Shown here: positions 14,846-25,272 of the stretch, one piece after another | How the letters are laid out: each line of letters begins with the position of its first letter | Numbering within the stretch: the first letter of the stretch is position 1 | Source: Thiogranum sp. | Lineage (GTDB): Bacteria; Pseudomonadota; Gammaproteobacteria; DSM-19610 | Direction of reading: 5' to 3' | NCBI GenBank assembly: GCA_030148915.1 | Contig: JASBSN010000090.1 | Location: 38,163 to 102,162 of the forward strand | Length of the DNA: 64,000 nt | Notes under the pieces: model-generated | The model's input: only the letters and a program-made list of their open reading frames with translations | What the model was told of the DNA's origin: nothing | Database searches by the model: none | Program-made: the position numbers and the translations under genes

Positions 14846-15097
14846 ATGAGCGGGGGAAACACCACGAAAGCGACTGGCTACAGAAAATCCCTGCGGAGCA
14901 ACGATCCTGAGTTTTTAACCGATATCGAGCTGCCGCGGCCGATTGCCGCCGGACGGGACTTGCTCGTGAAGATCAAGGCGGTTGCGGTTAATCCGGTGGA
15001 TTATAAAATTCGCCAGAAGATCGCGCCTAAGGGCAGCGCACGCGGCATTGTGCATGCTGTCGAAATAACCTTAGCCGATCAGGCCGCTATCGTTTGA
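14846..15097 (+). pseudogene. Truncated zinc-type alcohol dehydrogenase/quinone oxidoreductase N-terminus
   Basis: ATGYRKSLRSNDPEFLTDIELPRPIAAGRDLLVKIKAVAVNPVDYKIRQKIAP matches the MDR-superfamily N-terminus, but the frame ends after about 60 family-like residues; no catalytic or Rossmann domain follows. Confidence 0.7.
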
Positions 15098-16067
15098 GCT
15101 GTGACGAATCGTCGCTGGAATCAGTGACCGTCGTTTTGCCAAACCAGAAGCTGATGTCCTTGGAAAGAAACTCTTCATAGTTGATGTACAGCGATCCGTC
15201 ACAGGAAAACGTAAGGCCGACCATGCCGTTGATCAGATTAAAAGACGCCGAGCGCAGATAAATATTTTCATCCGCGTCACGCAGCACTTTAAGCTGATTG
15301 AGTACCGGGGCGACACTTTCCTGAGGAACCTGCGCGCGATCGGTGTAAGGCCGTTTTGCATAGACGAGCATACGATCCGCGTCGATGAGTTCGTCCAGTG
15401 GATGAATCTGGTAGCAATAAGGGTCTTCCACGGTCCACACAGATATCCGTGAGCTTGAGAAGTGTATCTTGGCGTGAAATATACCCCGCTCCTGCATCAT
15501 GTCTGCGATGATCGCCAATACCTCATCGAGGCGCTGGTCCATGGCGCTGTGTGAGCGGGTCTGCATGAACAGCGTACTGCGGATGGCCGGGTCTCCGCGG
15601 TATTGAGTCCAGGCCGGGGCCGAGGGCTGCGTGTCCTGTTCGGGCAGGTGGTCGACCTGGAAGTCCGCGGCAATGAAGCCGAGCACGCGCTCATCGGGCC
15701 TGACGACACACATGGCGGTGATACAGGGCTGCAGGTTGAACTGGCTGATATAGACCTGCGACAAAGTCAGGCCCTGAAAGGGCAGCGTGTTGTTCATGAA
15801 CGGACGCCCGGACAAGGAGCGATGGCGCAAGGAGGGATCGACCTGGCGCGATTGCACATTGGAGGAAATGAGCATGCCGTTGACATCCACCGCATACATG
15901 AGATGGCAGTAGGGCAGCGTCTGTAACCCCTCCTGCAGCACGTGGTCGAGTGCGTTCGGATCCGGCCATTTCTGCGTGCACTTTCGTGCCAGCGCTTCCA
16001 TCGGGCCGATGGCCATCTGGGCTAGAACAGCTTTTTTGCGGGAAGTGACTTGCTTAAACCAGGACAT
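15087..16067 (-). CDS. PDC/dCache-like sensor domain protein without obvious output domain
   Basis: 326 aa; LQEGLQTLPYCHLMYAVDVNGMLISSNV...DPSLRHRSLSGRPFMNNTLPFQGLTLSQVYIS pattern typical of PDC sensors; no HAMP/kinase/GGDEF detected. Confidence 0.65.
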   Translation of the reverse strand: MSWFKQVTSRKKAVLAQMAIGPMEALARKCTQKWPDPNALDHVLQEGLQTLPYCHLMYAVDVNGMLISSNVQSRQVDPSLRHRSLSGRPFMNNTLPFQGLTLSQVYISQFNLQPCITAMCVVRPDERVLGFIAADFQVDHLPEQDTQPSAPAWTQYRGDPAIRSTLFMQTRSHSAMDQRLDEVLAIIADMMQERGIFHAKIHFSSSRISVWTVEDPYCYQIHPLDELIDADRMLVYAKRPYTDRAQVPQESVAPVLNQLKVLRDADENIYLRSASFNLINGMVGLTFSCDGSLYINYEEFLSKDISFWFGKTTVTDSSDDSSQLKR

Positions 16068-16313
16068 AATCCGTTACAGTTACCGTTGATCGTCAGTGGG
16101 GGAGACTACAGGTTTCATATTACGATTGTTGTTTTCTTTTGCTGGAACTGCCAAGTCAGGAACTGATTTACAAAGCAAAAGTCTTGCCAAAATACCTGGA
16201 GTACAGGCGGCGAGTGCTCAAATTGCGCAGTCACTCAAGATTTTCCGCGGAGGTCCGATACAGCCACAGTGAGTCTCGCCACGCTCCGGGTAAGGTGAGT
16301 GCGCGCGAGAGGT

Positions 16314-16406
16314 TCTGTATAAGGGCAACCCCGACCGAAAGGACGGGGGCGCAAAGTTACCGGTCTAAGAGGTGTAAGCTTTATGATAGCGGGACTGCCG
16401 GAATTA
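16314..16406 (+). promoter_or_regulatory. Cyclic di-GMP-I (GEMM) riboswitch
   Basis: GGGCAA-CCCCGaCC-GAAA-GGaCGGGG-GCGCAAAG-TTACCGG-TCTAAG...TATGA-TAGCGGGACTGCCGG: conserved GGGCAA, GNRA-capped P1b-type hairpin, GCAAAG, tetraloop receptor (UCUAAG/UAUGA, a U-A replacement of CCUAAG/UAUGG) and 3' GCGGG...CCGG, in canonical order. Confidence 0.9.
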
Positions 16407-16538
16407 AGGTCCGACACGGGAGTTGTGTCGTGCTGTGCTTGCACTATCGCCAACCTGTTCCCAGTAAACCTCTATATATACGGCCGCCCAGCTGATGCCC
16501 GGACGCTGACCGACTAACCAATAACGAAGAGGAATGTC

Positions 16539-18191
16539 ATGTTGCACTGGTTCATGGCTCTGAGTATCCGCTGGAAACTTCAGTTCGGTTTTTTTATGGT
16601 GACCATGATCACCACTATTTTCAATCGCCTGCTCGCTTCCAACGAACTCGGCAAGATGGTTCATATCGCCGAGAAAAACGGGGTCGCCCCTGAGGTGATT
16701 GCCCAACTCGAGGCCAACCATAGCACTTATATCTTTAATTCGTTTTGGGAGTCGGGGTTGGAGTTCGCGATTCAGTTCATGGTCATTGGCGTGGTGGCCG
16801 GGTTCTTCGTTCGCCCGATCCGCGCCTTGTGCGTGGCTCTGCAATCCGTGCAGCAGGGGGATCTGACGCGTGGCGTGCCCAATACCTCGCAAGATGAAAT
16901 CGGCGTACTGGAGCGCAGTTTCAACGAGGTGCTGAAAAAGCTCAACCATATCATGGGCAACATCAACGACAGCGGCAAAGAAATGGAGCAATCGGCGTAT
17001 CAGATAGCCACCATTTCCCATGAAATCGCCGAAGTGGGAAAAAACGAGCAGCAGCGCTCTGAAGAGGTCACCGACGCTACCGCACGATTACAAGAGATTT
17101 CCGAGTCCGTCCAGCAGTTGGCGCACGACGCTACCGAGCGCGCCAAGCAGACCGAGCACCACGCTCAGCACGGCATCGAAACCCTGCAGTCCAATATCCG
17201 GCAAATGGATCAGACTGCGCAAGAGATCAACCGCGCCGCCGGTGAGATCGGGGAACTGTCGGATTCCGCGGAAAAGATCCACGATATCGTCAACGCCATA
17301 AAAAGTATCGCCGAACAAACCAACTTGCTGTCATTGAACGCCGCAATTGAGGCGGCGCGCGCCGGTGAAGCCGGGCGCGGCTTTGCCGTGGTCGCCGATG
17401 AGGTGCGCAATCTCTCGCAAAGCACCTCGACGTCGGTGGGGGAGATTTCGACCATCATAGAAGCCGTTACCAGTAAAATCGAACGGGTTTCGCACACCAT
17501 GGGTGAGGTGGTCGAACAGGTGCATATCAATCAGACGCTCGCCGCCGAAACCAGTAGCTCGATCGAAAAAATGGGTGGCGAAGTCAGCGAATCAGCCGCT
17601 GGCAGTCACAAGATCGTCGCTGCCAGCGATCATCAGCTGGACCAGCTCGGGCGCTTACAGCAAACGCTGGACAAGCTGTTCGAGACCCTGGGCGACAGTT
17701 CCTCCAAAGTCGAGAATACCGCCGCCATCGGCGACGATTTGTTTGCAGTGACGCAGCGGCTCAATGCGCTTATGGCGGGGTTTACGTTTAATTTCGACGA
17801 ACCGATCGCACCGGCCAGTCACGAAAAGAGATCTTTCCCGAGGGCGCATAGCAGTCTGTTGGTCAAAGTGGATAATGATGGCCATCTGTTGGAGGGCGTG
17901 AGCAGTGACATCAGTCTTTCCGGGATGCAACTGCGGATGCCAAGCGCTATCCGGGCCAGCGAAAACCTTAGCATTCAGGTCTACCTGCCCTATCACAACA
18001 TGGATGAGTATGAAAAACAGACGCCGTTGACCCTCACTGGTAACATCATCTGGAACAGGATGGATAATTCCCGTTACGTCTACGGCATAGAATTTAAAGC
18101 GCTAAACGGCGGGCAGGAACAAGGTCTGCGTCAGTGCTTCGAGTTTTATCGGAAGAACCCGGAGTTCGGTGTCAACGCCCGCGCGGCCTGA
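16539..18191 (+). CDS. Methyl-accepting chemotaxis protein with C-terminal PilZ domain
   Basis: Two hydrophobic segments, HAMP ([13 protein letters not shown]), MCP hairpin ([36 protein letters not shown]), then PilZ motifs RxxxR (KRSFPRAH) and DxSxxG ([10 protein letters not shown]). Confidence 0.93.
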
Positions 18192-23361: not shown

Positions 23362-23514
23362 GCCTCGGGGTACGCGGCCCGCCGGCCATTCATCCTCTCG
23401 TAACCTGCCAGACCTATAATGCGCTTACGGCCGGTAGGGAACCGTAGTTTGAGAGCCGGCCGCCGGTCCTTGGGCGGTTGTTTAAAGTCCGGGTGGAACA
23501 AGCGGCGCCATAAC

Positions 23515-25272
23515 ATGCAGTGGGACCAAAGCTCTGAGATCGACCGCGCCGGCGGTCTGCTGAAATATGTCCAGCCGGTACACCCGTCCACGCCGATGCT
23601 CGAGGTTTTCGAGCGCTTCATCAGCCACACCTCTCTTTACTCTGTGCCGGTGGTGGAGCTCAAGTCGCCGGTAGGGCTGGTCAATCGCAACAAGCTTATA
23701 GAGCTGTTCAGCAAGCCCTTCACGCGTGAGCTGTACGGCAGGAAGCCGATCTGTGATCTCATGGACCGCAAGCCCATCGTCGTTGATGTCGGCGAAAGCA
23801 CCGACGATCTGGCGCGCATTATTGTCGACGCCGGCATGCAATATATGTACGACGGTTTTATCCTGACCGAGGGTGAAGCCTACGTCGGTATGGGAACCGG
23901 GCATGATTTGTTGAATGCCATAACCGAACGTAAACAGGCGCACCTTTATCATCTCGCTCACTACGACCAGCTCACCGGACTGCCGAACCGATTATTGTTG
24001 ATGGATCGGCTGACCCATGCCTGTTCGCAGGCATACCGGCGTGAGCGGTTGGTCGCTCTGCTGTTTATTGATCTCGATCGTTTTAAACTGGTCAACGACA
24101 CCCACGGCCACGTTATCGGGGATCGTCTGCTGCAGGAAATTGCTTCTCGTCTGAAGTTATGCCTTCGCAGCAATGATACGGTTGCCCGTCTTGGCGGTGA
24201 TGAATTTACTGTGATTCTGGAAGATATTCAGCACGTGGAAACCGTCGCGGGAGTCGCGAGAAAACTCCTGGCGGCTTTGTCGGCGCCGGTCGAAATCGAG
24301 CGCCACGAGCTATTCATCAGCGCCAGCATTGGCGTCGTGTTCTATCCGTTTTCCAATGACACCAGTGAGAGTCTGATAAAAAAGGCCGACGCCGCCATGT
24401 ATTCCGCCAAGCAGCACGGCCGCAACGGTTTCCAGTTCTTCACCTGGGAAATGAGTGCTGCGGTGTTCGAGCGCTTGAGGATAGAAAACAGTCTGCGCTA
24501 TGCATTGGAGCGAAATGAGCTCGTACTGCATTACCAGCCCCAGGTGGAATTGAGCACCGGCCGGCTGGTCGGAGTTGAAGCTCTGCTGCGCTGGAGTCAC
24601 CCCGAGATGGGCCTGATCTCACCGGATGTATTTATTCCCATAGCGGAGGAATGTGGTCTGATTCATGAAATCGGCGAGCACGTCCTGCGCACCGCCTGCA
24701 GTCAGAACCACGCTTGGCAGAAGGCCGGGCTGCCGCCGGTCAAAGTCGCGGTTAATCTTTCTGCCTGTCAGATGAATCAGGCCTTGCCGAAGCTGGTGCA
24801 GTTGATACTGGGTGAAACCGGTCTGGGGCCCTCCTATCTCGAACTGGAATTGACTGAAAATATTCTGCTGGAAAATGTCGACGAGTCAATCGAGATTTTG
24901 CGCGAGCTGAGCGGCATGGGCGTTAAGGCCTCGATCGATGATTTCGGTACCGGCTATTCGTCGCTGAGTTACTTGCAGCGCCTGCCAATTAGCACGTTGA
25001 AGATAGATCGCTCTTTCCTGTTTGGCGTCCAGTCCGAAGCTGACGACACGACGCTTATCACGACAATTATCGCCATGGCTCATAACATGAAGCTAAATGT
25101 CATCGCCGAAGGCGTGGAAACATTTTGTCAGCTGCAAATGCTGCAGACAAACAATTGTGACTACGCGCAGGGTTATTACTTCAGCCGTCCGTGTCCGGCG
25201 AATGAAGTGGCTGAATTGTTGGACAGCCGGTATGCGCTTGTCTCGCCGGCTCCTCGGCGTGAGAAATGCTAG
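23515..25272 (+). CDS. CBS-GGDEF-EAL domain protein (diguanylate cyclase/phosphodiesterase)
   Basis: N-terminal CBS-like pair; YDQLTGLPNRLLLMDRL...ARLGGDEFTVIL (GGDEF); YALERNELVLHYQPQVELSTGRLVGVEALLRW...FGTGYSSLSYLQRLPISTLKIDRSF (EAL). Confidence 0.93.
   Translation: MQWDQSSEIDRAGGLLKYVQPVHPSTPMLEVFERFISHTSLYSVPVVELKSPVGLVNRNKLIELFSKPFTRELYGRKPICDLMDRKPIVVDVGESTDDLARIIVDAGMQYMYDGFILTEGEAYVGMGTGHDLLNAITERKQAHLYHLAHYDQLTGLPNRLLLMDRLTHACSQAYRRERLVALLFIDLDRFKLVNDTHGHVIGDRLLQEIASRLKLCLRSNDTVARLGGDEFTVILEDIQHVETVAGVARKLLAALSAPVEIERHELFISASIGVVFYPFSNDTSESLIKKADAAMYSAKQHGRNGFQFFTWEMSAAVFERLRIENSLRYALERNELVLHYQPQVELSTGRLVGVEALLRWSHPEMGLISPDVFIPIAEECGLIHEIGEHVLRTACSQNHAWQKAGLPPVKVAVNLSACQMNQALPKLVQLILGETGLGPSYLELELTENILLENVDESIEILRELSGMGVKASIDDFGTGYSSLSYLQRLPISTLKIDRSFLFGVQSEADDTTLITTIIAMAHNMKLNVIAEGVETFCQLQMLQTNNCDYAQGYYFSRPCPANEVAELLDSRYALVSPAPRREKC

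Follow-up and report, generated by a model that had tools for sequence, protein, structure and literature searches.

Does a cell that senses c-di-GMP through a chemoreceptor also use c-di-GMP to set how much of that receptor is made? This question is raised by a locus in a 64,000-nucleotide stretch of the Thiogranum sp. genome (contig JASBSN010000090.1, hereafter the window), in which a c-di-GMP-I (GEMM-I) riboswitch aptamer precedes a gene for a methyl-accepting chemotaxis protein (MCP) ending in a PilZ domain. Overall, the explanation that we favour, and regard as reasonably probable as a whole, is that FliA transcribes a leader in which the c-di-GMP aptamer sets translation of the receptor, and that the PilZ domain of the receptor binds c-di-GMP in turn. 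The receptor, the aptamer, the promoter and the evolutionary history of the leader are discussed in turn below.

The chemoreceptor

The gene at 16539..18191 (+) encodes a 550-aa MCP with a C-terminal PilZ domain, as assigned from Pfam matches, five full-length orthologues and hydropathy. Specifically, a HAMP domain (16794..16946, +; PF00672, 39.3 bits, aa 86-136), an MCP signalling domain (17136..17660, +; PF00015, MCPsignal, 132.9 bits, aa 200-374) and a PilZ domain (17823..18140, +; PF07238, 52.1 bits, aa 429-534) were each found above the Pfam cut-offs. The PilZ motifs read RSFPR (431-435) and DISLSG (457-462), and residues R431, R435, D457, S459 and G462 were invariant in all six aligned proteins (the window protein and its five orthologues). 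Pfam and the orthologue alignment thus bore out the initial annotation, made from the sequence alone, which had described a HAMP-MCP protein ending in PilZ with intact RxxxR and DxSxxG motifs. With PF00015 and PF07238 above cut-off and RxxxR and D/NxSxxG intact, the protein is by sequence a PilZ-domain chemoreceptor of the Tlp1/Cbp1 type. A Shine-Dalgarno sequence, AGAGGAA (16528..16534, +), is seen in the sequence 4 nt before the ATG.

In the hydropathy profile one transmembrane helix stands out clearly (aa 73-91). A less strongly hydrophobic segment close to the N terminus (about aa 14-33) is probably the first transmembrane helix, and the two are about 40 aa apart. Pfam returned no match to a ligand-binding domain in the protein. 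We propose that next to nothing of the receptor lies in the periplasm and that, with no ligand-binding domain recognised, the sensor that can be recognised is the C-terminal PilZ domain; this domain would bind c-di-GMP and modulate CheA signalling in the manner demonstrated or suggested for Tlp1 and Cbp1. According to passages of PMC6454048, Tlp1 of Azospirillum brasilense and Cbp1 of Azorhizobium caulinodans bind c-di-GMP through PilZ, and the window protein resembles both in its MCP signalling domain, C-terminal PilZ domain, RxxxR and D/NxSxxG motifs. Cbp1 is soluble, whereas the window protein has a transmembrane helix and a HAMP domain; the same passages mention no riboswitch upstream of Tlp1 or Cbp1, whereas the window gene has an aptamer upstream.

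The c-di-GMP-I aptamer

A cmscan search matched RF01051 over its full model (1-87) at 16314-16402 (+), scoring 70.1 bits where the gathering score is 35, with an E-value of 1e-11 and no non-standard pairs in the alignment. The near-canonical GEMM-I aptamer of the initial annotation, for which an Infernal search with RF01051 had been suggested as a check, was therefore confirmed by a significant match. This is the sole RF01051 match within the 3.2-Mb host genome. The aptamer ends 136 nt before the chemoreceptor ATG, and the distance of 133 bp given originally is to be corrected to this value.

The c-di-GMP contacts named for the Vc2 aptamer are G20, A47 and C92 (PMC4744006). Both the GAAA loop and the UCUAAG/UAUGA receptor are present in the RF01051 alignment of the window aptamer. 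From a hand alignment to Vc2, we take G16325, A16354 and C16398 to be the equivalents of the three contact positions, and all three are intact. The identity of the first of these bears on whether the aptamer might sense another cyclic dinucleotide, for example cGAMP, in which case the RNA and the PilZ domain would answer different ligands. Some GEMM-I RNAs are indeed known to prefer cGAMP; those of Geobacter that do so carry A at position 20, where G in place of A favours c-di-GMP. As the position-20 equivalent in the hand alignment is G16325, we consider a ligand other than c-di-GMP highly improbable.

A sigma28-like promoter upstream of the aptamer

FliA (sigma28) promoters were sought as TAAAGTTT-N11-GCCGATAA-like sites scored out of 16. 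Such a site, TCAAGATT-N11-TCCGATAC, was found on the + strand with its -35 element at 16235-16242 and its -10 element at 16254-16261, matching at 12/16 with ideal spacing. Tested against dinucleotide shuffles of the 246-bp region, the match has p = 0.01. From its end to the aptamer there are 52 nt, the same distance as for the corresponding site TAAAGATA-N11-CCCGATAC in the leader of a genus-mate, G001 (p = 0.003). The host genome encodes FliA, over the TIGR02479 cut-off, and a flagellin-family gene is also present. The scan itself is supported by the flagellin genes of the genus, upstream of which it yields TAAAG(T/A)TT-N11-AACGCTAA. Imperfect at 12/16, the window promoter is supported statistically and probably makes the MCP-PilZ gene part of the late-flagellar regulon. 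This layer, absent from the initial annotation, alters how the locus is to be read. We propose that the chemoreceptor mRNA would start around 16268 at this promoter, so that the receptor would be made together with the late flagellar and chemotaxis genes.

The position of the promoter also bears on whether the aptamer could be a relic or bystander, either because transcription starts downstream of it or because the leader no longer switches, with PilZ alone responding to c-di-GMP. An AT-rich stretch, TATATATA, lies between aptamer and gene around 16473-16481 and would suit a downstream start, but a scan of the + strand from 16068 to 16540 gave no sigma70-like promoter, and the sigma28 site precedes the aptamer.

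Sites of the FliA type (TCAAGTTT-N11-GTCG...) were also found in four of the five leaders of the MCP orthologues, where they score 11-12 of 16 and end 46-53 nt ahead of the ATG. In the fifth leader a weaker sigma28-like candidate was seen. All six leaders in which GEMM-I precedes a PilZ gene (see below) have a site scoring 11/16 or more, placed 46-59 nt upstream of the aptamer; in the antisense control such scores occur anywhere at 8%. These six leaders are partly homologous and may be counted as perhaps three independent lineages, which gives p of about 5e-4. In the class sample of 102 GEMM-I loci (L087-L188 and the window), a site of at least 12/16 was found within 150 nt before 14 aptamers. 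Shuffles predict 0.9 such cases; the antisense strand gave 0/102 (Fisher p = 8e-5) and all controls together 3/593. The genes behind these aptamers include an HD-domain gene (L162) and a PCO_ADO gene (L145). Among 56 aptamers from the new genomes of the phylum draw there was no excess (1/56 vs 1/56 antisense), and a link between sigma28 and GEMM-I as a general rule was rejected. Enrichment in the class sample and none in the second therefore indicate that sigma28 control is limited to a subset of GEMM-I RNAs. This suggests a testable regulatory layer, of which we found no earlier description.

Two further observations concern the promoter region. On the opposite strand, within the aptamer (16357-16383, -), a 13/16 sigma28-like match, TAAAGCTT-N11-ACCGGTAA, faces the divergent gene at 15087-16067 (-); as G001 does not retain its -35 half, the match is probably due to chance. 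Next to the chemoreceptor gene, this divergent ORF codes for 326 aa and has no match in Pfam, not even at E 1. In L088 (2807-3208, -), L208 (2872-3182, -) and L150 (3472-3783, -), the sigma28 -10 element is followed closely by the palindrome GTGA-N6-TCAC, which could be CRP-like or an RNA hairpin; in the window it appears decayed, as GTGAGTCTCGCCAC (about 16269-16282).

Conservation of the aptamer and receptor pairing

A search of GTDB genome contigs yielded five full-length orthologues of the window protein (L082-L086), with 54-57% identity and, in all four that were scanned, the same domains. No RF01051 match was found within about 3 kb on either side of any of the five genes. Among 55 related genomes no full-length MCP-PilZ orthologue was obtained. 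RF01051-positive genomes numbered 67/369 in the class, 7/56 among the relatives and 36/399 in the phylum draw, with one further order also surveyed, and 162 GEMM-I loci besides that of the window were fetched and examined. No MCP-PilZ gene was found behind any of these 162 aptamers, and the only same-strand MCP behind an aptamer, at L107 (G190), lacks a PilZ domain. MCPs behind GEMM-I were not significantly enriched (2/97 in the class sample, p = 0.06). A survey of relatives, which the initial annotation had proposed, thus located the riboswitch and MCP-PilZ pairing in the window genome only (0/5 orthologues, 0/162 other loci). Conservation of the pairing was rejected on the evidence of the five orthologues without an aptamer; the pairing is evolutionarily not maintained.

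The L107 gene (694-1917, +) encodes a 408-aa MCP and is followed by ORFs resembling chemotaxis-cluster genes. Among the other GEMM-I loci, tandem aptamers about 220 nt apart were seen at G073:C36:975-1279 and G292:C7:719338-719649, and one genome (G185) holds 11 GEMM-I aptamers.

A sister leader and other PilZ genes behind GEMM-I

The leader of G001 is 79% identical to that of the window over 164 bp, which take in the aptamer and some 75 nt on its 3' side. Behind the G001 leader lies a gene for a 171-aa PilZ protein (32.4 bits), not an MCP, followed by a gene for a receiver-TPR protein and then by an ORF that resembles a sensor kinase by eye. The PilZ domain of the 171-aa protein is degenerate: RxxxR is missing at its usual place, and DISTTA replaces DxSxxG with loss of the glycine. 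The two-tier ligand logic is therefore not required for retention of the leader. The G001 protein is homologous (E 3e-20 to 1e-8) to four proteins that are likewise encoded behind GEMM-I aptamers and keep RxxxR and NxSxxG. Three of these (L146, L150 and L208) combine a receiver with PilZ and come from three genomes of one family, and the fourth (L165) comes from one genome of another family. With the window and G001, six GEMM-I/PilZ genes were found. In the class sample, PilZ is encoded by 5/97 first genes behind GEMM-I, the window included (p about 1e-4), relative to a rough background of 0.4-0.5% of genes that is based on 10-15 PilZ matches per genome and an assumed 3000 genes.

Genus-mate orthologues of the window MCP and of the G001 PilZ gene were sought and none were found: the G001 PilZ gene is absent from the window genome (G000), and MCP-PilZ was not found at full length in G001. 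Based on these sequence comparisons, the best reading, and an economical one, is that a leader of the receiver-PilZ type has come to stand before the MCP-PilZ gene, presumably in this direction. A leader of a kind otherwise found before receiver-PilZ genes would now precede an MCP-PilZ gene whose orthologues all lack the aptamer and mostly have a sigma28-like promoter. We tentatively extend this to a broader proposal, which we think possible though short of probable: sigma28 promoter, GEMM-I aptamer and structured 3' domain may form a module, the characteristic leader of a PilZ signalling family in several gammaproteobacterial lineages, and this module may have passed from one PilZ gene to another without the genes being related (receiver-PilZ, degenerate PilZ and MCP-PilZ). 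If so, one product would be subject to the flagellar sigma factor and to c-di-GMP sensed both by RNA and by protein.

That sister leaders precede different genes in two genus-mates would also be expected if the leader were a separate small RNA, acting as a c-di-GMP reservoir or trans regulator with the MCP incidental. The structured domain after the aptamer is in keeping with this, and the abundant GEMM-containing merRNA of Bdellovibrio offers a precedent (PMC3627812). No terminator follows the leader, however, and PilZ is encoded behind it in both genus-mates and in four more genomes, which would be unexpected of an incidental neighbour. We judge the separate small RNA improbable.

The domain 3' of the aptamer

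Directly 3' of the aptamer, a conserved domain at 16400..16461 (+) is a candidate expression platform, alignable with G001 and with pairing predicted in both. Its layout comprises GGAA..AGGU, a GACAC/GUGUC hairpin, a second hairpin and ACCU.GUUCC. No Rfam match to a second RNA element was found 3' of the aptamer. We propose that the FliA transcript would have a leader of about 270 nt, with a functional c-di-GMP-I aptamer followed by this structured domain, which would set the amount of receptor translated according to c-di-GMP.

An intrinsic terminator as the expression platform was rejected, none having been found in the window leader; control is therefore probably translational. According to passages of PMC6366702, termination is likewise not how the two class I switches of V. 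cholerae work. Sequestration of the Shine-Dalgarno sequence was modelled in the window leader and not seen, its accessibility remaining unchanged when the 3' end of the aptamer was blocked, and the leader was no more stable than shuffles (z = 0.98). A possible anti-Shine-Dalgarno sequence, CCTCT (16469-16473, +), was noted by eye from its complementarity with AGAGG; folding gives no support to this hand-found pairing, which is within chance. In the leader of the receiver-PilZ gene L208, where ACCTGTTCC (16453-16461 in the window) recurs, the folding model lets this element pair with either the 3' end of the aptamer or the Shine-Dalgarno region. Blocking its pairing with the aptamer lowered the modelled Shine-Dalgarno accessibility from 0.54 to 0.23, a change that would correspond to an OFF switch. 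By analogy with L208, we lean weakly towards the window leader being OFF at high c-di-GMP.

The case for an aptamer that is a relic or bystander draws on the lack of a modelled switch in the window leader, and on the orthologues that manage without an aptamer. An aptamer of 70 bits with every contact position preserved speaks against it, as does the conservation with G001, which continues beyond the aptamer, and we consider such a relic unlikely. The claim of the initial annotation that one ligand controls both production and activity of the receptor stands in so far as aptamer and PilZ are both intact by sequence, which makes one ligand acting at two tiers a fair inference; it is weakened by a pairing that is unmaintained and by folding in which no switch was modelled. 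The feedback between c-di-GMP and taxis that the annotation derived from it is conjectural.

Relation to known systems

A GEMM-I aptamer upstream of an MCP gene has been described, as have MCPs with PilZ, each on its own; their combination appears new. Our search of the open literature, judged on titles and abstracts with some passages, found no description of GEMM-I with an MCP-PilZ or of a sigma28 promoter before a gammaproteobacterial GEMM-I, which is weak evidence of absence. Passages of PMC6366702 report that in Bacillus anthracis a putative MCP gene has a GEMM-I RNA upstream, so that this aptamer family is already on record before a chemoreceptor gene; these passages mention no PilZ, whereas the window MCP bears one and a sigma28-like promoter precedes its aptamer. 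The same source, as far as its passages go, describes Cd1, a riboswitch of the flgB operon in Clostridioides difficile, through which GEMM-I is coupled to the flagellar regulon as proposed for the window. Cd1 is located upstream of the operon, which contains sigD for the flagellar sigma factor, and works by terminating transcription; in the window no terminator is present, and it is the flagellar sigma factor that would transcribe the riboswitch. The Bdellovibrio merRNA is, like the window RNA, a GEMM-containing RNA in a FliA-dominated motility programme (the attack-phase regulon); unlike the window transcript it is non-coding, and no FliA promoter is marked for it in the table of PMC3627812.

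If our reading is correct, a single gene would read c-di-GMP twice, as RNA and as protein, with its transcription following the flagellar sigma factor. GEMM-I aptamers have an affinity of about 1 nM, as cited in PMC3627812, and that of PilZ chemoreceptors for c-di-GMP is 7-15 uM according to passages of PMC6454048. The locus would offer a compact case for asking why a cell should monitor one and the same messenger through two kinds of receptor whose affinities differ by orders of magnitude. A gene for a CBS-GGDEF-EAL protein, of a type associated with c-di-GMP turnover, lies about 5 kb downstream of the chemoreceptor gene (23419-25272, +).
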